Origin: Lachnospiraceae bacterium
GTDB lineage: Bacteria; Bacillota; Clostridia; Lachnospirales; Lachnospiraceae
Direction: 5' to 3'
Length of the DNA: 44,656 bases
NCBI GenBank assembly: GCA_016288005.1
Contig: JAEEXY010000019.1
Span: forward strand, 1 to 44,656
Shown: positions 5,485 through 36,822 of the stretch, piece after piece
How the letters are laid out: each line of letters opens with the position of its first letter
Position numbering within the stretch: position 1 is the first letter of the stretch
Notes under the pieces: generated by a model
What the model saw: the letters and a program-made list of their open reading frames with translations, nothing else
The model's database searches: none
What the model was told of the DNA's origin: nothing
Position numbers and translations under genes: made by a program

Positions 5485-7392
5485 TCAGTCGTAAGGCGTG
5501 TACCAGTCATGCAGGCCGGTATCGGATGAAGAGGCGTTTTTCTTCTGCATCTCCGAGTCGGTCAGCATGAAATAGGTATTGTAATAATAACCGAAGCTGT
5601 CTTTGATATCGTTCCAGGTAACGTCGATGTGGTACCAGGTACCGCCGACCTTTACATAGTTCCATACATGCGTGCCTCTTTTGTTGCAGAGAGCGGTGTT
5701 TTCGTAGCCGAGTATGTTGAGTACCAGCCTTAATGAGGAGGCGTATCCCTCGCATACCGCGTCTCCCATATAAAATGCGCCGGTCGCGTCACGCTGCGGA
5801 ACATCTCCCGCAGGCGGGAACGGATCCGAGTATGTTATCAGATCGCAGAAATAATCGTTGATGTAGAGCAGCATCGCCCGCTCGTTGTCGGGATAGAGCC
5901 GGGCGGCTTTGTCGGCGAGCCTGTAGGCATCGCGCAGGAGTTTTTTCGTTTCGTCATCAGGTGTGTAATCCTTGTATTTCAGGGCGATCACGGCTTTCCA
6001 GCCGGTCTTTAATACAGTATCGGAGAGAGAGATCCTGGTGACACCGTTGGCGGTTGCCGGTGAAACATCGGTATAAGAGTAGTAGCCGTCAAGCTCCGGA
6101 CGAACCTTCAGGTCCTGAGCGAGCGTATTGCACCAATACATGCTGTCATGGGTGTGATCGTCGGGGAATCGGAAGTAAAGTGTTTCCGCGCCCTTTTCAA
6201 AACCGTCGCGGCAGGAAAGGATCAGGCTCTTTTCGTCGGTGACGGTGTAGGTGAGAGACGGCTCGTAACCGGTGACGCGGTTATGTTTGTACAGTATGCC
6301 GTAGGTATCTTTCGCGAGCAGCTGGTCTATCTCGGCGTCGGTCAGCTCCGTTACATCAGCTGAGCCGATCGTGAGGCGGAACTCGTACATATTCATGTCG
6401 GTTCCGTAAACATAGATGCTCAGGTTTATGCCGGCCTTTTTGGCGGTGATCTTACCCGTGGTCGTTACATCGGCATAATCGTCATCCCAGCCGTTCGGCA
6501 TGCAGTGCATGATATCGGTACCGACGAGCTTGATCTGATATGTGTCGCCGGGTTTGAGCTCAACCGACGCGGGATCGAGATAAGTTTTCCCGGGGATCGG
6601 AGTGGGCGCAGCTGTGGGCTTAGCCGTAGGCGCCGGAGTGGCGGTAGGCTTTGACGTGGGTGTCGGAGCGGCCGTAGGCTTAGCAGTGGGTGTCGGAGCC
6701 GCGGTGGGCTTCGGAGTGGGTACAGCACCGCCTTCCACGATATTTATCTTACAGAAATAATGATTGTAGAACTTGTCCTCGACCTTGACCGCGACGGGAT
6801 CGGATGAAACCTTGAGCGCGGTCACCAGGCCGTCCTTCGTGACATCAAGGTAGGCCTTTTTGGAGTCGTCCACATAATACTTCGAGGCATCCTTGCCGAC
6901 GAGTCTGAGCTTCAGCTGACCGCCTACCGGCAGGTTATAGACTGATTTGTTATCCGTGGTCAGGTCGTATACGGGTATCGGTGTGGGTGTCGGTACCGCT
7001 GTCGGCTTCGGCGTGGGTGTGGCGGCCGTGGACTTATTCTTTACCGTGATCTTGCACTTGAAGGTCTTGTCGCCGAGAGTCGCGGTGATCACGGCCTTGC
7101 CTGCCGAGACGCCGATGATCTTGGTGGATTTGCCCTTTTTGGTTTTAACCTTCGCGACCGAAGGATCGGAGCTGGTCCATGTGTATTTTTTCGACGCGTT
7201 CTTTATCTTTAGCTTGTAGGAAGAACCGACGTATATTGTCTTTTTGGTCTTATTGATCTTGGCTGCGGCAGCCAGGACCTCTTCGGTCTGTGTCCGCAAT
7301 ATGCCTGTATCGGGACAGAATATGCCCGAGCAGGAGAGTATTAATGTCAGCAGCAGAACGCCGAAGATTCGCGTGAATTTGCGGTTTCTCAT
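5485..7392 (-). CDS. Secreted surface protein with Ig-like domains, PT-rich linkers and a transglutaminase-like domain
   Basis: This is a 635-residue exported protein. It starts with a basic, hydrophobic signal sequence (MRNRKFTRIFGVLLLTLILS). I chose the ATG at 7392 because GGAGG lies nine bases before it; an in-frame GTG three codons upstream would abut that site. A bacterial Ig-like (BIG2-type) domain follows, with TWTSSDPSVAKV and ISAGKAVITAT-like strands. Two Pro/Thr-rich linkers separate further beta-rich modules. The C-terminal part is a transglutaminase-like cysteine protease fold with the expected triad: Cys547 in AVCEGYA, His575 in THVWNYV, Asp590 in HIDVTWND. Such domains cleave or crosslink peptides, often in peptidoglycan or surface proteins; the substrate is unknown. 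It is transcribed alone, against nifJ. No anchor was seen, and the ILSC near the signal is a poor lipobox. Confidence 0.85.
   Translation of the reverse strand: MRNRKFTRIFGVLLLTLILSCSGIFCPDTGILRTQTEEVLAAAAKINKTKKTIYVGSSYKLKIKNASKKYTWTSSDPSVAKVKTKKGKSTKIIGVSAGKAVITATLGDKTFKCKITVKNKSTAATPTPKPTAVPTPTPIPVYDLTTDNKSVYNLPVGGQLKLRLVGKDASKYYVDDSKKAYLDVTKDGLVTALKVSSDPVAVKVEDKFYNHYFCKINIVEGGAVPTPKPTAAPTPTAKPTAAPTPTSKPTATPAPTAKPTAAPTPIPGKTYLDPASVELKPGDTYQIKLVGTDIMHCMPNGWDDDYADVTTTGKITAKKAGINLSIYVYGTDMNMYEFRLTIGSADVTELTDAEIDQLLAKDTYGILYKHNRVTGYEPSLTYTVTDEKSLILSCRDGFEKGAETLYFRFPDDHTHDSMYWCNTLAQDLKVRPELDGYYSYTDVSPATANGVTRISLSDTVLKTGWKAVIALKYKDYTPDDETKKLLRDAYRLADKAARLYPDNERAMLLYINDYFCDLITYSDPFPPAGDVPQRDATGAFYMGDAVCEGYASSLRLVLNILGYENTALCNKRGTHVWNYVKVGGTWYHIDVTWNDIKDSFGYYYNTYFMLTDSEMQKKNASSSDTGLHDWYTPYD
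6614..6723 (-). repeat. 30-bp tandem repeat coding for the PT-rich linker
   Basis: Nearly four consecutive units with a 30-bp period encode a ten-residue pattern rich in Pro, Thr, Ala and Lys (such as PTPTAKPTAA). The period is a multiple of three, so unit gain or loss only changes the linker length between the Ig-like part and the catalytic part. Confidence 0.8.
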
Positions 7393-25799: not shown

Positions 25800-27710
25800 A
25801 TGGAAAATAAACGTTCTTCAACGGGTTTTGTTATCGGCCTTACGATCGTAACGCTGATATTCCTCGTTCTGATCGAGCTGTCAAAAAATACGATCATAGG
25901 CTGGATACTGACCGTCGCTGCGGTCGCGGGGTTCGTGCTGGTAAGACGCAATCTTGTCAGCCGTGACATGTACTATCGGAGACCCCGAAAGGATATGCCG
26001 GCAAAAGGACCGGACGAGACCCCGGCTGTGCCCGACGATGCCGGAAAGCCTCGCAAGAGGGCATACGGTCCGCTCTGCCGGCTTGGTTTTCTTGCAGTCC
26101 TCGCTGCAATTTATTTCATCAGCTATCCTCCGATAAGACAGGTTCCCGCCGTCGAGGGCTTCGGCGTCGAGAAGACCGGCATCATCAAAGTGGCTGAGGG
26201 TGAGCTGACCGGAGTCTATAACAGAGAACATACGGCAGAGATCTATGCCGGTATCCCTTACGCGAAGGCGCCCGTGGGCGAGCTGCGCTGGAAGGAGCCG
26301 CAGGCACCGGACAGGTATGACGGTGTGCGTGCCTGCGATACATACGGCCCGATGGCCATGCAGAGCGGCAACGGACCGCTGTTCGGTTCGCTCTACCAGA
26401 TATTCGGCTTCCATAAGTACAATTTCAGTTTATTTGACAATTACAGAGAGAAAAAGTCCGAGGACTGCCTGTATCTGAACGTTTACAGGCCCGCGGATTA
26501 CAGCGGGGAGCCTCTGCCCGTAGTATTCTTCATACACGGAGGTTCGCTTACCACCGGGCAGTCGTACTATACCGAGTACAGGGGCGATTCTTTCGCGGAA
26601 AAGGGCGTGATATTCGTCAATTTTGCTTACAGGCTAGGCATACTCGGATATATGGCAAACGATGAGCTCGCGGCGGAGTCACCTGTCGGTACGACCGGCG
26701 ATTACGGCCTGCTCGACCAGATAGCGGCACTGAAATGGGTGCATGAGAACATCGCGGCTTTCGGCGGAGACCCCGACAATATCACGATCGCGGGCGAGTC
26801 CGCAGGCTCGTCGAGCGTCAATGCGCTGTGTGTTTCGCCTCTGACCGAAGGACTGTTCAGACGCGCGATCGCGGAGAGCAGCTCGGTTCTGGCGCGGAAG
26901 CCTTACCATACATTCCGTTCCATGGAAAACGCGCTGAAGACCGGCAGACAGATCATGAACGAGTTCGGTGCCGGCAGTGTTGCAGAACTGCGTGATATTC
27001 CTGCGGAAAAACTCATTACGACGCATACCTCGAACGGTCAGATGACCGTGGACGGCTACGCGATCGTCGAGCAGCCGTATCTGACCTATGAGAAGGGCAA
27101 AAACCACGAGGAGGCCCTGCTGAACGGCTTCAACGCCAAGGAAGCCGACGCGTTCCTGCTGGGCAACAAAGCGACCAAAGAGAATTACGAAGAACTCCTG
27201 AAGCCCATTGCCGGAAAGTATGCGGGAGAACTCGCGGCTCTGGTGCCGGCAGGCAGCATTACACGTGATCAGAAGTTCATCATAGATGCGGGAGGAGAGG
27301 CCAAAGGCTCGCTCTGTGAGGTGTATTCGGCCGCATGGTTCACCTACAGCCATTATCTCTGGACCAATTATATGGTCGATCAGGGACGCCCCGTTTACGA
27401 GTATTATTTTACGAAATCCAACAGATCGCTCAGCAATTTCCACGCGGGCGAGATGCCTTATGCCTACGGCAATCTGCACAGGAGCAGGGGCGTTTATGAC
27501 AGTGCCGACTTCGAGCTTTCTGAGAAGATGCAGAACTACTGGGTGAACTTCGCAAAGTACGGGGATCCCAACGGCGACGGTCTGCCCGTATGGGAACCGG
27601 TGACAGAGAAGGGCGGAAAAGTACTGGAACTGAACGAGAAGATCTCAATGACCGACGATCCGTATATCAGCATTTACCGCATACTCGACAAGTATCAGGC
27701 AGAGCAGTAA
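25800..27710 (+). CDS. Membrane-anchored carboxylesterase type B
   Basis: This 636-residue protein has about three hydrophobic segments in its first 120 residues, then an alpha/beta hydrolase domain of the carboxylesterase B (para-nitrobenzyl esterase) family. Visible signatures are YAKAPVGELRWKEPQ at the domain entry, EDCLYLNVYRP, the oxyanion loop FFIHGGSLTTG, and the nucleophile elbow GESAG with Ser334. A late His in FHAGEMPYAYGNL completes the likely triad. The membrane-anchored N-terminus is unusual, because most family members are soluble or secreted; the catalytic domain would face outside. The gene follows the ABC-F gene after 53 bases. Natural substrate unknown; removal of acyl groups from plant-wall material is only a possibility. 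Confidence 0.9.
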   Translation: MENKRSSTGFVIGLTIVTLIFLVLIELSKNTIIGWILTVAAVAGFVLVRRNLVSRDMYYRRPRKDMPAKGPDETPAVPDDAGKPRKRAYGPLCRLGFLAVLAAIYFISYPPIRQVPAVEGFGVEKTGIIKVAEGELTGVYNREHTAEIYAGIPYAKAPVGELRWKEPQAPDRYDGVRACDTYGPMAMQSGNGPLFGSLYQIFGFHKYNFSLFDNYREKKSEDCLYLNVYRPADYSGEPLPVVFFIHGGSLTTGQSYYTEYRGDSFAEKGVIFVNFAYRLGILGYMANDELAAESPVGTTGDYGLLDQIAALKWVHENIAAFGGDPDNITIAGESAGSSSVNALCVSPLTEGLFRRAIAESSSVLARKPYHTFRSMENALKTGRQIMNEFGAGSVAELRDIPAEKLITTHTSNGQMTVDGYAIVEQPYLTYEKGKNHEEALLNGFNAKEADAFLLGNKATKENYEELLKPIAGKYAGELAALVPAGSITRDQKFIIDAGGEAKGSLCEVYSAAWFTYSHYLWTNYMVDQGRPVYEYYFTKSNRSLSNFHAGEMPYAYGNLHRSRGVYDSADFELSEKMQNYWVNFAKYGDPNGDGLPVWEPVTEKGGKVLELNEKISMTDDPYISIYRILDKYQAEQ

Positions 27711-27738
27711 AGCGTTATTCTTTGCAGAAAATAATGAC

Positions 27739-27769
27739 TTGACACACCGTTGTATATTTGAGAGAATAT
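27739..27769 (+). promoter_or_regulatory. Predicted promoter of the mod genes with an overlapping inverted repeat
   Basis: A perfect TTGACA (27739-27744) lies 17 bases before GAGAAT (27762-27767, four of six matches). The inverted repeat ATATT-N6-AATAT (27754-27769) covers the spacer and the -10. Its A/T-rich, symmetric form recalls ModE-type operators near molybdate genes, but it lacks their full consensus, so molybdate control is only a suggestion. Confidence 0.45.
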
Positions 27770-27824
27770 CGATAGGGCAAAATTAATTTGCTCGTATCAA
27801 AAATATTTAGACGCGGTGAGAGTC

Positions 27825-28685
27825 ATGAAAAGAATTATCGCTGTTTTGCTGGTATTATGTCTGACATTCGGAGCTTTCGGGGGATGCTCAAAAAAAGAAA
27901 AAGAGAAGATCGAACTGATCGTTTTTGCTGCTGCGTCCATGACGGAGATGCTGACCGGTATCGCGGAGCTGTATAAGAAAACCGCGCCGGAGGTCACGCT
28001 GACTTTTAATTTCGATTCGTCGGGAACGCTCAAGACACAGATCGCCGAAGGCGCAGACTGCGATGTGTTTATCTCTGCGGCGCCCAAGCAGATGAACGGG
28101 CTGGATTCGGCCAAGGACGCCGACGGCGGCAATACCGAAGGTCTTGATTTTGTGCTGCAGGGTACGAGATTCGACCTGCTCGAGAATATGGTCGCGCTGG
28201 CCGTACCCGAAGGCAATCCGGGCGGTGTCGCTTCTTTTGACGATCTGTTTTCGAGATTGAAGGCCAAGAGTGAAGAACTCTCAGCCGGCAATTCCGATGT
28301 TGTATTTGACCTGATGCTAGCAATGGGCAATTCGGACGTTCCGGTGGGGCAGTATACGCAGAAGATCATAAAATATTACGGTCTCGACGAAGAGGCTCTG
28401 GCAAGATCAGGGCTGATCACCTACGGATCCAATGTAAAGGAAGTTACTTCACAGGTAAAAGAGGCAGTTGTATCCTGCGGAGTCATTTACGCGACCGACG
28501 CTTTTTCCGCAGGCCTGACAGTTGTGGATACCGCAACAAAGGAAATGTGCGGACAGGTTATTTACCCTGCGGCAGTCATGAAGAATACAAAGCATGAGCA
28601 GGCGGCGAAGGACTTCCTTGAGTTCCTCAAAGGCGGCGAGGCCTCGGAGGTATTCAAGGCAGTCGGATTCTCACCGCTGTCGTAA
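27825..28685 (+). CDS. modA: Molybdate ABC transporter, substrate-binding lipoprotein
   Basis: This 286-residue lipoprotein binds molybdate (or tungstate) outside the cell for the ModBC importer. I took the ATG at 27825, which gives the signal MKRIIAVLLVLCLTFGAF with lipid Cys21 (GGC); a GTG three codons upstream is the other option. The ModA hallmarks are VFAAASMTEMLTGIAELYKK at the start, FNFDSSGTLKTQIAEGADCDVFISA, and YATDA towards the end. It is compatible with ModA rather than the archaeal WtpA type. It leads a block of molybdenum genes and is separated from modB by a repeat-filled 141-base gap. Confidence 0.93.
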   Translation: MKRIIAVLLVLCLTFGAFGGCSKKEKEKIELIVFAAASMTEMLTGIAELYKKTAPEVTLTFNFDSSGTLKTQIAEGADCDVFISAAPKQMNGLDSAKDADGGNTEGLDFVLQGTRFDLLENMVALAVPEGNPGGVASFDDLFSRLKAKSEELSAGNSDVVFDLMLAMGNSDVPVGQYTQKIIKYYGLDEEALARSGLITYGSNVKEVTSQVKEAVVSCGVIYATDAFSAGLTVVDTATKEMCGQVIYPAAVMKNTKHEQAAKDFLEFLKGGEASEVFKAVGFSPLS

Positions 28686-28720
28686 TTTAATAATAGCATG
28701 AAGCCATGGAAGACAAGGGA

Positions 28721-28807
28721 AAGACATGGGGACGGTTCTTCTGTCTCCTGATTCTTGAGACAAAAGAACCGTCCCCGTGTCTTACAAAAGAACCGTCTCC
28801 ATGTCTT
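28721..28807. repeat. Palindromic GGGGACGGTTCTTTTGTCTC repeat plus an extra arm
   Basis: The arms 28721-28747 and 28757-28783 are complementary over 27 bases with two mismatches. A third copy of the right arm follows at 28784-28807, with one more change in the core. The element fills the gap between modA and modB and could form a strong hairpin in their transcript, perhaps lowering modB expression relative to modA. Confidence 0.88.
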
Positions 28808-28826
28808 GCAAAAGAAAGGACTCACC

Positions 28827-29513
28827 ATGGACTGGTATCCTTTGCTTAATTCCCTGAGGATCGCGGCGATCAGCAGCGTGATCGTATTCTTCCTCGGGAT
28901 TTGCGCAGCCTATTACATCGCAAAGACACCGCGCGTGATAAAGGGCATCCTCGATGTCATCTTCACGCTCCCGCTGGTGCTCCCGCCCACCGTTGTAGGC
29001 TACATTTTACTGAGAATACTGGGACCCAGACGCTTTTTCGGCGCCTGGTTTTTTGAAGTGTTCGGACTGAAGCTCACGATGCAGTGGTGGTCGGCGATAT
29101 TTGCGACGACTGTGGTCATTTTCCCGCTGATGTACAGGACCGCGAGAGGGGCATTTGAGTCGTTTGACGAGACTCTCGCATACGCGGGGCAGACGCTCGG
29201 TCTCAGCAATACATACATTTTCTGGCGGATCAGGATGCCTTACTGCAGGCAGGGGATCATCGCAGGCAGTGTGCTCGCTTTTGCGCGTGCGCTCGGTGAA
29301 TACGGCGCGACGAGTATGATCTGCGGGTACACTCCCGGGAAGACCGCTACCGTTTCTACAACTGTCTACCAGCTCTGGCGGACCAACGACGACTCTCTGG
29401 CGATAAAATGGGTGCTTATAAATATCGCGATATCCGCGGCTGTGCTGCTCACGATCAATCTGCTCGAGCGGAACGATTACTTTAAGAACCGTAAAAAAGC
29501 TGCTGTCAGGTAG
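28827..29513 (+). CDS. modB: Molybdate ABC transporter permease
   Basis: This 228-residue membrane protein forms the molybdate channel with ModC. Hallmarks are FTLPLVLPPTVVGYILL near residue 50 and the ATPase-contact loop with FARALGEYGAT. About five membrane segments are visible. The start is ATG 28827, preceded by AGAAAGGA; the frame is open further upstream to an ATG at 28755, but that extra stretch is translated repeat sequence and not part of the family. Confidence 0.95.
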   Translation: MDWYPLLNSLRIAAISSVIVFFLGICAAYYIAKTPRVIKGILDVIFTLPLVLPPTVVGYILLRILGPRRFFGAWFFEVFGLKLTMQWWSAIFATTVVIFPLMYRTARGAFESFDETLAYAGQTLGLSNTYIFWRIRMPYCRQGIIAGSVLAFARALGEYGATSMICGYTPGKTATVSTTVYQLWRTNDDSLAIKWVLINIAISAAVLLTINLLERNDYFKNRKKAAVR

Positions 29514-29541
29514 TTTTTTATGAGAAAGGAGGCGGCGTAAG

Positions 29542-30756
29542 ATGTCCCTGACCGTTGATATAGAGAAAAAACTGGGTTCCTTTATACTGAAAGTCAGTTT
29601 CGAGACGGGCAATGAATCCGTATCTCTCCTCGGGGAGTCAGGCTGCGGAAAGAGCATGACGCTTAAATGCATCGCAGGCATCGAAAAGCCCGACAGAGGG
29701 CGGATCGTGCTGGACGGACGCGTACTGTTCGACTCGGAAAAAGGCATTGACCTGCCGCCGCAGGAGCGCAGGGTGGGTTATCTGTTTCAGGAAGGCGCGC
29801 TGTTTCCCAATATGTCGATCCTGGACAATGTGATCTGCGGGATCAGAGAGAAAAGCGCTAAGCGGGAAAAGGAAAAGACCGCGCGCGAAATGCTGGCGCG
29901 GATGCATCTGTCCGATACGGAGAAACGCAGGCCCGACAGTCTCTCGGGAGGACAGCGGCAGAGAGCTGCGCTCGCGCGGATACTGGTAAACAAACCTGAG
30001 ATATTGCTGCTCGATGAGCCTTTTTCGGCGCTGGACGCGCATCTGCGCTTTGAACTGGAAAGAGTTGTGAGCGATACGATACGGGAGCTGAAAAAGCCCG
30101 CGATCCTCGTTTCACACAACCGCGACGAAGCATTCCGTATCACGGATAAGATAGCGATAATGAAGGACGGCGCGATCGAAACGGTCGGCGAGCGCCACAG
30201 CGTTTTTGCCGATCCGCAGACCGTGTATGCCGCGAGGATGACCGGCTGCAAGAATGTAGCGGCGGCTTATGTATCGGAAAGACACGGGGACGGTTCTTTT
30301 GTCTCCGGTGCTGACAGACAGAGGGACGGTTCTTTTGTCTCCGGTGCTGAAAGACAGAGAGACGGTTCTTTTGTCTCTGAGTCTGAAGACCAAAGAACCG
30401 TCCCCATGTCTTCGATATATGTTCCCGACTGGGGGATAGAGCTTACTGTTCCGCGCTCCGATAAGCCCGTAAATGCGGTCGGTATCAGGATGCACGACAT
30501 CATTCTGGGCCGCGGAGATACAAACGAATTTTGCTGCAGGGTCGAAGAAGAGATCGAGAATCCTTTTTCGTATACGATCATGGTAACGCCCAACAGACAT
30601 GAGGATGGTTCTTTTGTCTGCGGTGTCATTCAGGCAAAAGAACCGTCCCTATGTCTGCCGCTCGGAGTGGAGGCGGACAAACCGGCCTGGGAGGCGGCCC
30701 GTGCGGAAACCGTTACCATACACATTCCGCCCGAAAATGTGTTATTACTGAGATGA
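29542..30756 (+). CDS. modC: Molybdate ABC transporter ATPase with repeat-derived insertions
   Basis: This 404-residue ATPase powers the ModAB importer. The first 240 residues are a normal ABC domain: Walker A GESGCGKS (31-38), Q-loop FQEG, signature LSGGQ (134-138), Walker B LLLDEPFSALDAH and the switch His in LVSHNRDEA. The C-terminal part corresponds to the Mop/TOBE region. It is interrupted twice by translated copies of the dispersed repeat. Residues 250-285 are three 12-residue units (DGSFVSGADRQR and variants), and residues about 355-375 contain DGSFVCG and AKEPSLCLPLG. The frame is intact, so the gene is probably still functional, though molybdate sensing by the C-terminal domain could be altered. 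AAAGGAGG precedes the start. The stop overlaps an ATG (ATGA) in the next gene. Confidence 0.93.
   Translation: MSLTVDIEKKLGSFILKVSFETGNESVSLLGESGCGKSMTLKCIAGIEKPDRGRIVLDGRVLFDSEKGIDLPPQERRVGYLFQEGALFPNMSILDNVICGIREKSAKREKEKTAREMLARMHLSDTEKRRPDSLSGGQRQRAALARILVNKPEILLLDEPFSALDAHLRFELERVVSDTIRELKKPAILVSHNRDEAFRITDKIAIMKDGAIETVGERHSVFADPQTVYAARMTGCKNVAAAYVSERHGDGSFVSGADRQRDGSFVSGAERQRDGSFVSESEDQRTVPMSSIYVPDWGIELTVPRSDKPVNAVGIRMHDIILGRGDTNEFCCRVEEEIENPFSYTIMVTPNRHEDGSFVCGVIQAKEPSLCLPLGVEADKPAWEAARAETVTIHIPPENVLLLR
30281..30412 (+). repeat. In-frame 36-bp tandem repeat inside modC, from the GGGGACGGTTCTTTTG element
   Basis: Copies start at 30289, 30325 and 30361, so the period is 36 bases (12 codons). 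The third copy closes with the complementary arm (CAAAGAACCGTCCCC), so the whole block is a palindrome with an internally amplified left arm. All copies are in the modC frame. Confidence 0.9.
30595..30656 (+). repeat. Second repeat copy inside modC
   Basis: The arms 30595-30616 and 30635-30656 are complementary over 22 bases with three mismatches, around an 18-base loop. The block encodes DGSFVCGVIQAKEPSLC, inserted in the last third of ModC without a frame shift. Confidence 0.88.
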
Positions 30757-30770
30757 GAATCGAGGAAAAA

Positions 30771-31787
30771 ATGAGAAAAGTTCGTGTTGAAGATGCTGTC
30801 GGCCTGACATTATGCCACGACATCACAAAAATGGTCGACGGATTCAAAGGTCCAGCGTTTAAGAGAGGTCATGTCATCCGCGAGGAGGATATTGAGGAAC
30901 TCTTGAATATCGGCAAAAAGACCGTATTTATCTGGGAAGAGAATGCCGGCGAGCTGCATGAGGAGGACTGCGCCCTGCGAATGGCCGCGATGGCGCCCGT
31001 CGAGGGAGCGCATTATACCGCGCCGTCCGAAGGCAAGGTGCTGTTGATCGCCGATACGGACGGCATGTTCAGGGTCGATACGGAGCTGCTCACTGATATA
31101 AATTCGATCGGAGACCTCACGATCTCCACACTTCCCGATCATTTCCCTGTGAAAAAAGGCGACAGGCTGGCATCCATGAGGATCGTGCCTCTGGTGACGC
31201 AGGAGGAGCAGATCATTAGCGCCGAGAAAATGTGTGACGGCAGAAAACTGCTCAATCTGCGGACTTACCATGAGCGCAGGACCGGAGTCATCATCACGGG
31301 TTCGGAGGTTTACAGCGGCCGCATTAAGGACAAATTCGAACCGGTAGTCAGAGCGAAGCTGGCGAAATACCCCGGTGAGATCGTGGGAGTGACGATCTGC
31401 GACGACGACCTCGATATGATCGTGAGTGAGGCGAAAAAGCATCTCGACAGGGGAGCCGATTTCCTGATATTTACCGGCGGAATGAGCGTCGATCCGGACG
31501 ATATCACTCCGACCGCCATCAGGCAGTTGGGTGCCGGGATAATAACGCACGGAGTGCCCGCGCAGCCCGGCAATATGACTCTGGTCGCATATCTGGGCGA
31601 CATACCGGTACTCGGAGTTCCCGGAGCCGCGATCAGCCTGCCTACGACTATATTTGACGTGCTCCTGCCGCAGATATATGCCGGCGACAGGCTCACGAAA
31701 CAGGACCTGATCCGTTTGGGAGACGGCGGACTCTGCCGCATGTGCGAGACCTGCCATTTCCCTACCTGCACATTCGGGAGGTACTAG
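30771..31787 (+). CDS. Molybdopterin-binding protein (MoeA/MoCF domain family)
   Basis: This 338-residue protein probably acts in molybdenum cofactor assembly or handling. I chose ATG 30771, which has GAGGA just before it; ATG 30753 overlaps the modC stop and is an alternative. The N-terminal half starts with VEDAVGLTLCHDITKMVDG.FKGPAFKRGH, as in MoeA-related proteins. The second half is the MoCF domain, with GVIITGSEVYSGRIKDKF, FLIFTGGMSVDPDDITP and VLGVPGAAI. The last residues are Cys-rich, CRMCETCHFPTCTFGRY, and could bind metal. It is shorter than classical MoeA (about 400 residues) and matches the group usually annotated as probable molybdopterin-binding proteins. Translational coupling to modC fits a role with imported molybdate. 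Confidence 0.88.
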   Translation: MRKVRVEDAVGLTLCHDITKMVDGFKGPAFKRGHVIREEDIEELLNIGKKTVFIWEENAGELHEEDCALRMAAMAPVEGAHYTAPSEGKVLLIADTDGMFRVDTELLTDINSIGDLTISTLPDHFPVKKGDRLASMRIVPLVTQEEQIISAEKMCDGRKLLNLRTYHERRTGVIITGSEVYSGRIKDKFEPVVRAKLAKYPGEIVGVTICDDDLDMIVSEAKKHLDRGADFLIFTGGMSVDPDDITPTAIRQLGAGIITHGVPAQPGNMTLVAYLGDIPVLGVPGAAISLPTTIFDVLLPQIYAGDRLTKQDLIRLGDGGLCRMCETCHFPTCTFGRY

Positions 31788-32081
31788 TAACTGGATTTTT
31801 TGATACTCTTTCAAAAAATCCATCCGAGATTTGCTCTGAAAAAGTGCGAACGGGTCAACGCACTTTTTCAAAATCGAGGAAGGCGAAGCCGGTTACGGTC
31901 ACGCCGAGGTATTCCCGAGGCAGTGACTACCTTGTGTATTCTCGAGGCTGTGACTACCTTACATAATCTCCTTAACCATCGATTCCGCATACCCCATAAT
32001 AGTGTTTCTTTAATCATACGGGAGTGCTATGATAGTACCGTTGACCGATATAACTGTCATATTTTCGAATAGGAGACCGAT
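31788..32081. other. 294-base non-coding gap with two perfect hairpins and a direct repeat
   Basis: The first hairpin has 12-bp arms (31792-31803, 31811-31822) and the second has 12-bp arms (31837-31848, 31859-31870) with the T run CTTTTTC inside the second arm, so the pair may end the mod/moeA transcript. Two 25-base direct repeats with two differences follow (31909-31933, 31936-31960; core CGAGGC-GTGACTACCTT). The rest holds the promoter of the next gene. No convincing small reading frame was found. Confidence 0.7.
32005..32033 (+). promoter_or_regulatory. Predicted promoter of the lipoprotein gene
   Basis: TATGAT (32028-32033) is preceded by TGc, an extended -10. At 17 bases upstream is TTTCTT, a weak -35. 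The leader is about 42 nt and ends with AGGAGA before the ATG. Confidence 0.45.
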
Positions 32082-32687
32082 ATGAAGAAAACACTCATGC
32101 TTATACTGTTTGCCATTCTTCTTTCAGCCTGTACCGGGTATAACGAATCGAAGTATATAACGGAAGGCAGCATGGGCTACGAGCTCTCGAGCAGCCGCAG
32201 TGAGGCGATGGCTAGGGAATATTTCTGGGACGGGGACGAAAACAATACCGTGATAGATGTTCCCGCCGAACTCTCGGACGGCACCCCCGTCAGAAAGCTG
32301 GGCGGCTTCATCGGGATCGGAGTTCCCGCAAGTTTTGAGATAAAATATGATGAGGCAATCGATACGGAAACGGTCACCGGAAGCGCGGTCACCGTGAACG
32401 ATGCGGAAAACACTGATGACGGAAAAGAAGAGACCGCTGTCGTGTATAAGGATATCGTATTTACCGTAAATGTCGGCAGGAATATTACGAAAATGGGTGT
32501 CATGAACGAATACAACATTTGCTATAATATCACCTCGCACGGCATAAGACAGGATGACGGCACGGTGCTCGTTTACCGTCCGACGCTGTATTTTAACGTT
32601 GCTCCGCTGAATACCGCGTTTTATGCCGAGGACGGTATTCTGTACAAAAGAGATACGGGTGAGCCGGTCATGACGAGACAGGATTAG
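32082..32687 (+). CDS. Hypothetical lipoprotein
   Basis: This 201-residue protein has a lipoprotein signal ending in LLSAC with Cys17. The mature part is acidic and beta-rich. It has no motif I recognise; the strands around VVYKDIVFTVNVGRNITKMG and VYRPTLYFNVAPLNTAFYAEDG suggest a compact sandwich. A putative insertion VTVNDAENTDDGKEE looks like a loop. It lies between the MoeA-like gene and mogA on the same strand, with its own promoter, so a link with molybdenum use is only positional. It could be an exported partner of an enzyme encoded elsewhere. Confidence 0.8.
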   Translation: MKKTLMLILFAILLSACTGYNESKYITEGSMGYELSSSRSEAMAREYFWDGDENNTVIDVPAELSDGTPVRKLGGFIGIGVPASFEIKYDEAIDTETVTGSAVTVNDAENTDDGKEETAVVYKDIVFTVNVGRNITKMGVMNEYNICYNITSHGIRQDDGTVLVYRPTLYFNVAPLNTAFYAEDGILYKRDTGEPVMTRQD

Positions 32688-32785
32688 CAGTCTCGCAGCT
32701 GAGTTATCTGTGAGGCGCTAACGGGACGGGACTTAACACTCATATAAGGAGAGATCACAGTAATTTAAACGGGGAGAACATAAAT

Positions 32786-33289
32786 ATGGATAAGACATAT
32801 AAGGCCGCGGTGATAACAGTCAGTGACGGATGCCACAGGGGCGAGCGCACGGATACGAGCGGCCCCGCGCTGTGCGAGATCGTAAGGAGTATGGGGTATG
32901 AGGTCGCGCATATAGCGATAGTGCCCGATGAAAAGGATCTGATCCGTGACGAGCTGCTCAAATGCTGCGATACGCTCGGGATCAATCTTGTGCTGACTAC
33001 CGGAGGCACCGGTTTCGCAAAAAGAGATGTGACTCCCGAAGCCACAACAGAAGTCATCGAGCGCGAGATACGCGGGATACCCGAGGCCATGCGCGCCGCC
33101 AGTATGCAGATCACGCCTCACGGGTGCCTCTCACGCGGCGTTGCGGGGATCAGGGGATGTTCGCTTATCATCAATTTGCCGGGCAGCGAGAAAGGCGCGA
33201 GGGAGAATTTTGAGGCGGTCAAGCCTGCAATCGGGCATGCTCTTAAGATGATCGCATCGGACGGTTCGGCAAACTGCGCGGGCGTCTGA
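32786..33289 (+). CDS. mogA: Molybdopterin adenylyltransferase (MogA/MoaB family)
   Basis: This 167-residue cytoplasmic enzyme adenylylates molybdopterin, the step before metal insertion. It covers one MoCF domain: AAVITVSDGCHRGERTDTSGP at the start, LTTGGTGFAKRDVTPEAT in the middle (the GGTG and D/E substrate-binding residues), and LPGSEKGARENF near the end. The length is normal for MogA/MoaB. GGGGAGA lies before the ATG. It precedes moaA by 62 bases and is probably cotranscribed with it. Confidence 0.93.
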   Translation: MDKTYKAAVITVSDGCHRGERTDTSGPALCEIVRSMGYEVAHIAIVPDEKDLIRDELLKCCDTLGINLVLTTGGTGFAKRDVTPEATTEVIEREIRGIPEAMRAASMQITPHGCLSRGVAGIRGCSLIINLPGSEKGARENFEAVKPAIGHALKMIASDGSANCAGV

Positions 33290-33351
33290 GATAAAAAACT
33301 TTGAACCCGTCAGGCAAATGATCGGGAATACGACAACAGGAAGAAAACGAA

Positions 33352-34455
33352 ATGCTGGACAGATTCGGCAGGGAAATAACATATTTGCGAATGTCGGTGA
33401 CAGAGCAGTGCAATCTGCGCTGTCGCTATTGTATGCCCGTAAACGCCGATCGTACGAAGGGCAGCGTCGGATGTACATCGGCTGACTGTGACGGTGAGCT
33501 TTGCGGAGGAGACGGCGCCGGAACAGGCATGCTTACACCGGACGAGATGATCACGGCCGTACGCGCGGCTGCGTCTCTCGGGATAAAAAAGGTCCGCATC
33601 ACCGGAGGCGAGCCCCTCATCAGGCATGATATAGTTTCCATCTGTGAACGTACGGCGGCGGTTCTCGGGATAGACGAGGTCTGCATAACGACCAACGGAC
33701 TGCTGCTCAAAAAATACGCGAAGGAGCTCGCGGCAGCGTGTGTAAGGCACGTAAATATCAGTCTGGATACACTGGATGCGGAGAAGTATGAATATATCAC
33801 AGGACAATGCGATTGTCCGTATGCTTCAAAGAGCAGCCGGGGCGGAGCAGAGGTGGGTGCAGAGGTGACAGGCACCGGCAACAGGATCGGATGCCCTGCG
33901 GCAGCAGCCGGTCCCGAACGCGTACTGGCCGGACTGGAGGCAGCACTTGCCGCCGGCTATGAAAAGATTAAGATAAATACCGTGCTCATCGGCGGTTTTA
34001 ACGATGACGAGGCGGAGGCTCTCGCAGGGCTTACGCTCAGATATCCCATAGATGTGCGTTTTATCGAACTGATGCCGATGATGGGCGGCGTATTCGGCCC
34101 GGAGGCATATATTTCCGCGGACGAAGTGTTAAAACGCCTTAAAGGCCTCGAAAAAGCCCCTGACGACGGAGTGGCGAGAATGTACCGCCTGCCCGGAGCA
34201 AAGGGCGGCATAGGCCTTATAAGCCCCGTAAGCGCCCATTTCTGTGCGGAGTGCAGCAGGCTTCGCCTTACGGCCGACGGACGGCTAAAACCCTGCCTGC
34301 ATTCGAGAGAAGAGTATTCTATAAGGGGACTCGACGAGACGGGGATGAGAGCCCGCATGGAGGAAGTCATACTTGCCAAGCCCGAGATGCATCCGAGACT
34401 CTCATATGACTCTTTGTCGGAGGCCGGGCGCAGCATGAACAGGATCGGAGGATAA
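33352..34455 (+). CDS. moaA: GTP 3',8-cyclase MoaA, with two unusual insertions
   Basis: This 367-residue radical SAM enzyme starts molybdenum cofactor synthesis by rearranging GTP. The radical SAM cluster motif is C20-x3-C24-x2-C27 (CNLRCRYC), and the ITGGEPL glycine motif follows. The second cluster is formed by CAEC...C near the C-terminus (SAHFCAECSRLRLTADG, then KPCLHS). The tail ends with the conserved Gly-Gly (MNRIGG). It is about 40 residues longer than usual because of two insertions. Residues about 33-59 hold C41, C46 and C51, right after the SAM motif. Residues about 152-187 hold C153, C155 and C181, with a low-complexity Gly/Ala/Val stretch. All catalytic parts are present, so it should be active. 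It ends eight bases before the flavoprotein gene. Confidence 0.93.
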   Translation: MLDRFGREITYLRMSVTEQCNLRCRYCMPVNADRTKGSVGCTSADCDGELCGGDGAGTGMLTPDEMITAVRAAASLGIKKVRITGGEPLIRHDIVSICERTAAVLGIDEVCITTNGLLLKKYAKELAAACVRHVNISLDTLDAEKYEYITGQCDCPYASKSSRGGAEVGAEVTGTGNRIGCPAAAAGPERVLAGLEAALAAGYEKIKINTVLIGGFNDDEAEALAGLTLRYPIDVRFIELMPMMGGVFGPEAYISADEVLKRLKGLEKAPDDGVARMYRLPGAKGGIGLISPVSAHFCAECSRLRLTADGRLKPCLHSREEYSIRGLDETGMRARMEEVILAKPEMHPRLSYDSLSEAGRSMNRIGG

Positions 34456-34463
34456 TACAGAGC

Positions 34464-35144
34464 ATGAAAATACTGGTTTTAAACGGCAGCCCCAAGAAAA
34501 AGAGCGACACGATGAGACTCACCGACGCTTTTCTTAAGGGACTCAATAAAAACAACGAACACGAAGTAAATATCATAAATGCCATTGACAGCGACATCGC
34601 GCCCTGCAGAGGGTGTTTCGGATGCTGGCAGCAATCGGACGGTCACTGTACGATCGACGACGATCAGAACCGGATACTCGATCTGTACCGTGACAGCGAT
34701 GTGATAATCTGGAGCTTTCCGCTCTATTGCTACGGCATGCCTTCGCATTTAAAGGCGGTACTCGACCGCACGATCCCGCTGGTCAAAATGAAAATGGTGC
34801 AGCTGCCCGACGGAACGGTTCGTCACGAACCACTCGTTGATTTTTCGCGGATCCGTACATTGGTGATCTGCGGATGCGGATTCCCGAACTGGGACGGCAA
34901 TTTCGACGCGATGAAGCTGATGTGCAAAAACTGTTTCGGTGATCCGGAGATCGTCTGCGTGCCCGAGACTCCGCTGCTCAATGTACCTGCGGCAGCAGTC
35001 GTCGCCGACCCGCTGCTCGCGCGTTTTGAGCAGGCCGGAGAGGAATACGCCGCATCGCTTACACTCTCCACGGAAACGATAGCAGCGCTTGAGAAACCCA
35101 TGATATCTGCAGAAGAGTACATCCGAAACGTGAACGGGCAGTAA
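34464..35144 (+). CDS. Flavodoxin-fold NAD(P)H-dependent oxidoreductase
   Basis: This 226-residue protein carries the NADPH-dependent FMN reductase fold: LVLNGSPKKKSDT at the N-terminus forms the FMN phosphate loop, and IIWSFPLYCYGMPSHLKAVLDR follows. The block APCRGCFGCWQQSDGHCTI is Cys-rich (C-x2-C-x2-C plus C), as in many members that carry a metal cluster or redox cysteines near the flavin. It sits inside the molybdenum cofactor genes, eight bases after moaA, so it may supply electrons for cofactor steps such as the MoaA iron-sulfur clusters. That pairing is inference. Its CGGAGG ribosome site lies within the end of moaA. Confidence 0.85.
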   Translation: MKILVLNGSPKKKSDTMRLTDAFLKGLNKNNEHEVNIINAIDSDIAPCRGCFGCWQQSDGHCTIDDDQNRILDLYRDSDVIIWSFPLYCYGMPSHLKAVLDRTIPLVKMKMVQLPDGTVRHEPLVDFSRIRTLVICGCGFPNWDGNFDAMKLMCKNCFGDPEIVCVPETPLLNVPAAAVVADPLLARFEQAGEEYAASLTLSTETIAALEKPMISAEEYIRNVNGQ

Positions 35145-35171
35145 AATGCCGTTTTTCTTAAAGAAAATACT

Positions 35172-35200
35172 GGAAATGCGCAGTGATTTCGGATAAAATA
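35172..35200 (+). promoter_or_regulatory. Predicted promoter of moaC
   Basis: TGGAAA (35172-35177) and TAAAAT (35195-35200) are 17 bases apart, with four and five matches to consensus. The leader is about 60 nt and ends with GGGAGG before ATG 35267, so moaC may be transcribed separately from the flavoprotein gene. Confidence 0.45.
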
Positions 35201-35266
35201 TATCTGTAGGACGAATATGTGTTTTTGAAATCTGTTTTATGACATGACCGCGTTGGGAGGTGCCGT

Positions 35267-35761
35267 ATGATAGAGAAGCTTGAAGGCGATTTTACGCATT
35301 TTGATGACAGGGGTAAAGTTAAGATGATCGATGTCGGCGATAAGCCGAAGAGTGACAGGAGAGCGGTAGCCGCAGCCACCGTTCTGATCAATCAGGAAAC
35401 TTATGACCTGATCCGCAGCGGCGGCACCAAAAAGGGCGACGTTCTGACGGTCGCGCAGTTGGCGGGCATCATGGGAGCAAAGCATACCTCCGATCTGATC
35501 CCGATGGCGCATCTGGTCAATATCAACAGTGTGGAGATGAGGCTCCGCCTGAACGAGGAGAAGTGCGAGGTGGATATCGAAGCCGCCGTTTCATGCTTCG
35601 GCAGGACCGGAGTGGAGATGGAGGCGCTGACTGCGGTATCGATCGCTGCGCTCACGGTCTATGATATGTGCAAATCGATCCAGCGCGATATAAAGATCAC
35701 CGACATCCGCCTGCTGGCCAAGACCGGCGGCGTTCACGGAGATTATACCGCGGAAGAATAA
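35267..35761 (+). CDS. moaC: Cyclic pyranopterin monophosphate synthase
   Basis: This 164-residue enzyme acts after MoaA to make cyclic pyranopterin monophosphate. The length is normal. Family blocks are FDDRGKVKMIDVGDKPKSDRRA, KHTSDLIPMAHL, TGVEMEALTAVSIAALTVYDMCKS and LAKTGGVHG. The acidic pair in GVEMEA and the D..K pair in YDMCK, both expected in the active site, are present, and the catalytic His is retained, but the usual PMCHP motif is PMAHL here. It follows the flavoprotein gene and, with moaA, supplies the two first steps of the pathway. Confidence 0.95.
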   Translation: MIEKLEGDFTHFDDRGKVKMIDVGDKPKSDRRAVAAATVLINQETYDLIRSGGTKKGDVLTVAQLAGIMGAKHTSDLIPMAHLVNINSVEMRLRLNEEKCEVDIEAAVSCFGRTGVEMEALTAVSIAALTVYDMCKSIQRDIKITDIRLLAKTGGVHGDYTAEE

Positions 35762-35770
35762 AAAATATCC

Positions 35771-35896
35771 GGTGCCTGTCACCGTAAGACGATGGAATAC
35801 AAGGGGACGGTTCTTCTGTCTGCGCACTTCGCAGACAGAAGAACCGTCCCCATTGTCTTTATTAGTCAGCAGACAGAAGAACCGTCCCCTTGTCTT
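35771..35896. repeat. Cluster of dispersed repeats between moaC and metA
   Basis: A half GGTGCCTGTCACC copy (35771-35783) is followed by a perfect 21-bp palindrome of the second family (35803-35823 with 35831-35851; core GGGGACGGTTCTTCTGTCTGC), and then by an extra right arm near 35868-35891. The variant TTCTGTCTGC differs from the TTTTGTCTC variant elsewhere. Convergent genes flank it, so the hairpin may end both transcripts. Confidence 0.88.
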
Positions 35897-35904
35897 TCGT
35901 GTAT

Positions 35905-36822
35905 TTACTGTATGTTGTTCACATCGTAAGGTGTAGCCTGATATACGTAGTAGTTCAGCCAGTTCGAATACATTGTATTGCAATGGGCGCGCCAGGAGAG
36001 TATCGGCTTTTTCTCCGGATCGTCACCGGGATAGTAGTTTTTCGGGATCTCGATCGGCAGTCCTTTGTCCAGGTCGCGGTGATACTCGGAATCGAGCGTC
36101 ATGCGGTCGTATTCGAGGTGACCGAAAACGAATATCTGACGGCCCTCCTTTGCCATAGCGATGCAGATGCCGGCTTCGTCGGAATCAGCGAGGACCTTGA
36201 GCTCGGGATGATTTCTGATCTCCTCGGGATCGACCGTGGTATGGCGGCTGTGCGGGATGTAGAATATATCGTCAAAGCCTCTTACGAATGGCTCCTTGCG
36301 GTTGTGCACGGTATGTTCGAACACGCCGAACATCTTCTTGGGCAGGGCGATCTTATTTATGCCGTAATGATAGTAAACACCGGCCTGCGCGCCCCAGCAT
36401 ATATGCAGAGTGGAGGTAACGTTTGTTTTCGACCATTCCATGATGGAGCAGAGCTCGTCCCAGTAGGCGACCTCCTCGAAGGGCATCTGCTCGACGGGAG
36501 CGCCCGTGATGATCAGTCCGTCGAACTTTTTACCCTTAATGTCGTCAAAGGTCAGATAGAACTGGTCGAGATGCGATTTCGCGGTATTCTTGCCGACGTA
36601 GGTGGAGGTCGTAAGGAAAGTCATGTTCACCTGCAGCGGCGTATTCGACAGAGACCTCAGCATCTGGACCTCGGTGGCCTCTTTCAGGGGCATCAGGTTC
36701 AGGATCGCGATCTCCAGCGGACGGATATCCTGCGTCATTGCGCGGTTTTCGTCCATCATGAAGATATTTTCCTCTTCCATTATTTTCTTTGCGGGAAGAT
36801 CGTTCTGAACTCTGATAGGCAT
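35905..36822 (-). CDS. metA: Homoserine O-acetyltransferase of the MetA family
   Basis: This 305-residue cytoplasmic enzyme acylates homoserine in methionine synthesis. Key residues are visible: the nucleophile Cys142 (HICWGAQAG), and a catalytic His in VFGHLEYD. Residue 111 is Glu (GAPVEQ), the residue type known to give acetyl-CoA preference in MetA proteins, whereas Gly there gives succinyl-CoA preference. The old name homoserine O-succinyltransferase is therefore likely wrong for this protein. It has its own promoter upstream and follows ligA on the minus strand. Confidence 0.94.

Follow-up and report, generated by a model that had tools for sequence, protein, structure and literature searches.

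In Pseudomonas, REPINs have been described as inverted pairs of REPs that are mainly extragenic and are linked to RAYT genes (PMC3116915). Intragenic REPs were reported by Di Nocera et al. in 2013, who found palindromes in known genes and two of them in one gene in the cases of uvrA and uvrB. REP clusters in genes encode 43–82 residues, and these were suggested to be neutral in flexible linkers or loops (PMC3733652). REPtrons can be lost by deletion (PMC3733652), and in-frame REPs have been described inside RAYT genes themselves (PMC6006769). TIRYT genes are RAYT-like, have inverted terminal repeats with GGGGWSAS and encode a C-terminal helix-turn-helix; some of these TIRs are self-complementary and dispersed, as dimers or clusters (PMC3733652, PMC6006769). 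The palindromic elements of Rickettsia are ~150 bp in length, lie in frame in many unrelated genes, where nearly half of them are located, and are translated (PMC10969869). These statements, and the comparisons below, refer to the parts of the four sources drawn on here.

The locus that we analyzed lies in a window of 44,656 nucleotides from a Lachnospiraceae bacterium (assembly GCA_016288005.1, contig JAEEXY010000019.1), to which positions refer unless another locus is named. Its modC gene carries two in-frame insertions of a palindrome family, at places that we call site 1 and site 2. Tolerated insertions of REPINs, with site 1 later amplified in multiples of three, are very probably the explanation of both. 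By a REPIN we mean two inverted REPs, and by a REP a short hairpin that would be moved in trans by a tyrosine transposase of the RAYT/TIRYT type.

As with the REPs of Di Nocera et al., the palindromes in modC are short and intragenic, there are two in the gene and they code for tens of residues; however, the tags of those REPs are GTAG or CGTC, whereas the conserved part here is a GGGGACGGTTCT loop (PMC3733652). Neither “Firmicutes” nor “clostridi” occurs in the main text of that paper. At their foot, the listed arms showed no GTAG tetranucleotide, the mark of GTAG REPs, and CGTC lies within the paired arm and not at an unpaired end, which sets the family apart from CGTC REPs and the Rickettsia elements. 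It resembles the latter in that palindromes are inserted in frame into genes, but the elements here are ~63 bp, 4/66 sampled clusters are in genes and the sequence is different (PMC10969869). Like Pseudomonas REPINs, the family consists of inverted REP pairs that are mainly extragenic and RAYT-linked, here in relatives; unlike them, it occurs in a host genome in which no RAYT was found, and tandem REP monomers lie in a coding gene (PMC3116915). For subclass 2.1 (TnpAREP), the consulted part of PMC6006769 reports no REP-like sequence near the genes, whereas we observed a covarying hairpin and 217 arms in one genome, and unlike TIRYT/subclass 2.1 systems that genome shows no such transposase gene.

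In-frame REPs have been published before, and modC is a well-supported further case. It documents a REPIN family in rumen Lachnospiraceae, with a link to RAYT-type transposases in relatives, and indicates that a mobile palindrome can settle in frame in the gene of a transporter ATPase and then seed a coding tandem repeat. It is plausible that selfish DNA gives rise to new protein loops by such a route. A literature search with ggggacggttctt gave a match in Botrytis work only, and literature that names RAYTs together with clostridia and repetitive extragenic palindromes contained nothing about this family by title, both in collections that mostly do not cover subscription journals.

Two palindrome insertions in modC

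The gene order at the locus is modABC-like, followed by a MoCF_biosynth gene (PF13531, PF00528, PF00005 and PF00994). The open reading frame at 27816..28685 (plus strand) encodes a modA-type solute-binding protein (PF13531, E 8.5e-39), and a modB-type permease is encoded at 28827..29513 (plus strand; PF00528, E 3.1e-15). The start of modB is probably at 28827, where the sequence of a related locus, L061, aligns; the TTG at 28755 that begins the listed frame sits within a family element. This element lies between modA and modB (28729..28799, plus strand) and comprises one plus arm and two minus arms. The modC-type ABC ATPase, of 404 aa, is encoded by the open reading frame at 29542..30756 (plus strand; PF00005, E 1.7e-33), which hosts both insertions, and comparison with PDB structures showed that its fold is that of full-length MalK-class ATPases and of ModBC. 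A further copy of the family, again with one plus and two minus arms, lies at 35804..35888 (plus strand), outside genes according to a codon model.

Site 1 (30279..30412, plus strand) was delimited by repeat comparison, TRF and an alignment of ModC proteins, and is a REPIN with a tandem-amplified 5' REP, consisting of three 36-bp units and one inverted arm. The REP of unit 1 (30279..30304) has an AGACA...TGTCT stem and the GGGGACGGTTCT loop; those of units 2 and 3 are at 30315..30340 and 30351..30376, all on the plus strand, and an inverted REP at 30387..30412 (minus strand) closes the palindrome. Each outer arm (30279-30304 and 30387-30412) measures 26 nt, and the two are 92% complementary. 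The 36-base units span 30277 to 30384 in frame, with copies 2 and 3 having 92% and 81% identity to the first as reference, and TRF reported the repeat at 30277-30377 with a period of 36, 2.8 copies and a score of 174. An earlier note on this DNA had described three in-frame 36-base units, and this is borne out by the DGSFVSG codons, which begin at 30289, 30325 and 30361. It had also matched the outer ends to the palindrome upstream of modB, correctly, as the same arm is present there at 28729, 28758 and 28782. Site 2 (30594..30657, plus strand) was overlooked in that note. It is a second, single REPIN, complete and in frame, with 27-nt arms that are 85% complementary and have 10 nt between them.

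An AlphaFold model of ModC made with a 39-sequence alignment had a mean pLDDT of 89.5. By ten-residue blocks, the pLDDT was 47–71 over residues 251–290 and 58–66 over residues 351–370. In the model, site 1 comes after the strand at 243–247, early in the regulatory domain, and site 2 lies between the strands at 343–350 and 374–379. Both inserts are thus predicted to be low-confidence loops in an otherwise well-modelled regulatory domain. The repeat block had been placed at the boundary between the ATPase and the regulatory domain; in the model it is not exactly there but occupies a hairpin loop near the start of the regulatory domain.

The alignment contained 39 ModC proteins, that of the window and those of 38 of the 80 loci that were fetched. 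The stretch containing site 1 (N238-W297) has 16 residues in 36 of the 39 proteins, 34 in L061, 39 in L062 and 58 in the window. The earlier note had named the presence of the same segment in all related ModC proteins, those from genomes without the family included, as the finding that would speak against an insertion, and these lengths (16 residues in 36/39 versus 58) show that this is not the case. The stretch containing site 2 (E339-K380) has 23–28 residues in 38 proteins and 40 in the window. Among the 80 loci, an arm (≤3 mismatches) was found inside modC only in L061, a locus of the yak rumen Lachnospiraceae RGIG10088 (genome G020), which also bears the family elsewhere in its genome. Site 1 of L061 holds one simple palindrome, with 24-nt arms that are 100% complementary and 10 nt between them. 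The site 2 palindrome is absent from L061 and, within the aligned set, was seen in the window alone. Both length steps at site 1, of 18 codons (16 to 34 residues) and 24 codons (34 to 58), preserve the frame.

In another relative, an unrelated 23-residue extension (L062:1952-2044) was observed in the same ModC loop as site 1. It is probably not a decayed REP copy, since a search at ≤3 mismatches gave no arm and the sole inverted repeat was one of 9 nt.

The dispersed family and its candidate mobiliser

The window contains 13 arm matches (≤3 mismatches) versus 0.15 expected, and the maximum over 100 shuffles was 2. In the genome to which the window belongs (G000), 117 + 100 = 217 arms were found at ≤2 mismatches, and a reversed control gave 0 + 0. 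At ≤1 mismatch, arms occurred in 15 of 145 genomes, mostly in G000 (194), G081 (58), G005 (51) and G020 (35). These arm counts, together with the in-frame units, agree with the earlier reading of a dispersed palindrome that lies within modC and was amplified with its frame kept.

The location of the arms was assessed with a codon model for which 44 long frames, modC among them, served as the training set. By this model, 4/66 distinct sampled clusters of G000 lay within real genes: two are the modC insertions themselves, and the others lie in genes for an amidohydrolase and a GH2 glycosidase. The 66 clusters represent most of the 0-mismatch places among the matches listed (contigs to C83), with C43 left out. 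The same model gave a coding fraction of 0.905 for the window, and genes are therefore strongly avoided or purged. One of 21 clusters in G020 was in a gene, again modC, and in G005 one of 25 was clearly and one more weakly in a gene. The peptide encoded by the REP was missing from the amidohydrolase homologue L271 (n = 1) and from the four GH2 homologues that cover the place (L278–L281). In a frame of G005 that we take to be RibF-like (L260:1144-1701), one REP arm was observed in frame, translated as SVQTEEPSPCLNESS.

As expected of REPs and REPINs, the family is a high-copy palindromic unit of 20–40 nt that is mainly extragenic, with 62/66 clusters outside real genes, and it shows inverted pairing, with 42 short-loop inverted pairs listed (41 in G000 and 1 in G020). 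Outside genes, a seven-arm REP array with a period of ~35 was observed in G000 (L156:3750-3978), with a single arm at the matching place in G020 (L244), and comparison of the two sequences indicates that tandem growth happens outside genes too. Several wide palindromes (L158, L161, L162, L163, L164, L166, L167, L169, L011 and L017) had a second inverted repeat nested between their arms. This nested repeat, which has GCGGGCG-type ends and CCCGGAAGTTTTACTCG or TTTTACCGCAAAACG cores common to several loci, could represent another palindrome family, with the loop of the first as its target. A known structured RNA was rejected, as no Rfam match was found in positions 27000–36500 of the window, nor in five loci whose inner segments are long. 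The possibility that the arms are the ends of a long transposon was also rejected, as the widest plus/minus pairs (L153, L154 and L155) enclose ordinary-looking, mutually different frames.

Alignment of the arms indicates that every single arm forms a hairpin, in which the GGGGACGGTTCT loop is conserved and the stem covaries. Across 13 arms from 11 genomes the stem varies and the loop is constant, 76.9% of cells being paired versus 52.0% in shuffles, with 22 versus 9.5 two-sided cells. Covariation for these 13 arms was 0.647 versus 0.242 ± 0.060 when shuffled, above all 500 shuffles. Slid registers, which gave ≤0.256, are the better control because related sequences may beat shuffles without structure. 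Covariation rose to 0.752, and paired cells to 86.7%, for the ten arms with a clear stem, that is, without the poor-stem arms of L180, L186 and L212.

In some relatives, the repeat flanks a RAYT-type gene. Inward-facing GGGGACGGTTCT (≤2 mismatches, within 1 kb) was present on both sides of 10/22 RAYT-type genes and 0/17 IS200-type genes (Fisher p 0.0019). Control motifs (outward, reversed and scrambled) were two-sided in 0 cases in both groups and one-sided in up to 2/22 and 2/17. Left out of both groups were fragments (L182, L183, L188, L194 and L196-L200), weak matches (L187 and L193), a different protein of 126 aa (L208) and L177, which is the same gene as L201. Eleven of the RAYT-type genes came from 13 genomes chosen for their arm matches, and 6/11 were flanked; the other eleven, which had weaker Y1 matches and were mostly long frames, G056 included, were flanked in 4/11 cases (Fisher p 0.016 versus 0/17). 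The variants in the flanks were genome-specific (GACGGTTCT, GACGTTTCT and GACAGTTCT). When compared with GGGGWSAS, GGGGACGG agrees in 7/8 letters and GGGGACAG (L212) in all letters. Helix-turn-helix-type matches followed the Y1 domain in 8/8 proteins at E ≤ 5, although these were weak and all under the Pfam cut-off, the best being HTH_23 at 6.9e-5. Assignment to TIRYT/subclass 2.1 is suggested by these sequences as a lead.

A RAYT in the same genome, which is usual for REPs but not strictly defining, was not found in the draft G000. PF01797 had 0 matches there at E ≤ 0.001, with positive controls in 5/14 genomes, and a RAYT protein query of G000, run without a positive control, returned nothing at E ≤ 10. 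At E ≤ 0.001, G000, G005 and G020, the three arm-richest members of the genus, showed no Y1 transposase, and at E ≤ 0.1 G005 and G020 still had none. This absence is not proof, because the draft assembly of G000 comprises 136 contigs (99.55% complete, 5.98% contamination) and G005 and G020 are incomplete (81% and 64%, respectively).

Age and conservation of the insertions

Comparison with the related species sets the order of events. Because L061 has one palindrome at site 1 and none at site 2, site 1 is most likely older than the split between the species of the window and of L061, and its tandem copies most likely arose after the split, or else were lost in L061. The unit number, 1 in the related species versus 3 in the window, is the sole evidence of a change in length for the variable linker that the earlier note had suggested, and comes from one genome per species. 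Independent insertion at site 1 in both species is disfavoured because the two share a 10-nt loop of like sequence, and a loop of that length was found elsewhere only in L159 among the 42 listed inverted pairs.

An unexpected synonymous conservation bears on how REPIN copies persist. Outside the inserts, modC of the window and of L061 share 74.4% of bases and 47/118 fourfold sites; this fourfold identity of 0.398 is near saturation but not at it (random expectation 0.277). In the core of the element, by contrast, 51/54 bases and 10/11 fourfold sites are identical over 18 aligned codons (fourfold Fisher p 0.0024), and the codons of conserved residues are identical in 15/16 cases versus 128/243 outside (p 0.0011), in a small sample for which the region was chosen as the element and the more divergent outermost arm codons were left out. 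The plus arm upstream of modB is likewise preserved in L061. Since the conservation covers synonymous sites and one intergenic arm, protein selection alone does not keep the element.

Other sites gave a comparable picture. We compared G000 with G020 or G005 at 13 locus pairs picked by protein matches among 38 relatives' loci, and by eye the flanks aligned up to the element in 11 of them. The exceptions were L213/L236, whose flanks do not align, and L168/L259, which have single arms in opposite orientation. Among six full palindromes that were compared, six positions had changed on both arms together, in 4/6 pairs; the other differences were on one arm only or did not match. The joint changes, of one to three positions each, were observed in L217/L247, L026/L239, L225/L256 and L005/L261. 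This pattern fits long residence with some arm-to-arm correction, and re-insertion or selection on the hairpin could also produce it. In both species the modC copies are of the TTTT arm subtype, whereas TTCT is present in both arms of 30/36 sampled palindromes outside modC, and the modC copies have therefore not simply been overwritten by the commonest kind.

A further idea, which we regard as doubtful, is that the REPINs of this family are long-lived, with their sequence actively maintained at fixed sites, genic and intergenic, by a process acting on the DNA. In such a process, one arm could serve as a hairpin template for correcting the other, or copies could exchange sequence. If true, REPINs could persist without a transposase, and the block in modC would be a translated case, still present although most of the synonymous identity of the surrounding gene has gone. 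The most interesting point left over is that an old in-gene REPIN is conserved, synonymous sites included, in a genome without a visible transposase.

Tolerated insertion and its alternatives

In the explanation that we favor, a copy would have entered the loop early in the ModC regulatory domain by transposition, before the species of the window and of L061 (G020) split, and its mobiliser would have been a RAYT that is no longer visible in the genome. The insertion would have been tolerated, and presumably neutral for ModC function, owing to a flexible loop, a net gain divisible by three (18 codons, as in L061) and the lack of stops in the frame that is read through the element. Later, in the lineage of the window, slippage or unequal exchange would have duplicated the 36-bp unit of REP plus loop twice, adding 24 codons, and another ModC loop would have received a second REPIN.

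The reading frame of the insertions does not call for a special cause. The consensus element has 0 stops in six frames, as have 1083/20000 palindromes with shuffled arms. The copies in modC do contain stops: the 4 at site 1 all fall in a single unused forward frame, and the 4 at site 2 are distributed among four frames that are not used. Among 38 natural palindromes, 20 lack stops in all six frames, and the length is a multiple of three in 21. Given the stop-free consensus and these counts, an in-frame survivor is therefore not improbable and no extra selection on the frame is needed. Selection for the open frame, as the earlier note had worded it, was thus not borne out, the consensus being free of stops in six frames and ordinary selection on modC being sufficient.

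Some observations stand against tolerated insertion. The mobiliser is unseen beside the elements, as no Y1 transposase was found in G000, G005 and G020, and 12/22 RAYT-type genes have no flanking arm. The arms appear near-identical despite the 40% fourfold identity of modC, where simple neutral decay would predict otherwise. This DNA-level conservation, however, also counts against an adaptive linker, in which selection would have favoured the 12-residue units as a spacer whose variable length adjusts the regulatory domain, and which we consider quite unlikely. The units are in frame, their length is a multiple of three and their number is 1 versus 3 in the two species, and the unrelated extension of L062 indicates that the length of this loop can change. 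Yet 36/39 aligned ModC proteins hold exactly 16 residues there, the inserts have low pLDDT, fourfold sites are identical at 10/11 in the core versus 47/118 outside it, and tandem arms occur outside genes too, with periods of 24, ~35 and 38.

The presence of the modB-upstream arm and the modC element at matching places in L061, and the six arm positions changed jointly on both arms at other matched sites, would agree with a role in RNA or DNA, whereby folding of the palindrome within the mod mRNA would affect the stability or translation of the operon. The predicted folds are very stable (site 1, −73.6 kcal/mol, z −7.2; site 2, z −7.6; the L061 element, z −10.7; the modB-upstream element, z −6.9), but folding energies are not independent evidence because any palindrome folds well. 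The inverted arm upstream of modB has, moreover, been lost in L061 and no Rfam family was found in 27000-36500, and we judge this role to be very unlikely. A native coding minisatellite of modC that merely resembles the dispersed palindrome would account for the tandem in-frame units, but its probability is close to negligible. It was rejected on the single-copy state of L061 and on the complete palindrome with its own loop, of which site 2 holds a complete second copy.

Two other tandem repeats were observed in the window. A 27-bp repeat with ~2 copies lies at 31909-31970, downstream of the MoCF_biosynth gene, and a 30-bp repeat with 2.9 copies lies at 6634-6721, inside a 638-aa frame on the minus strand.
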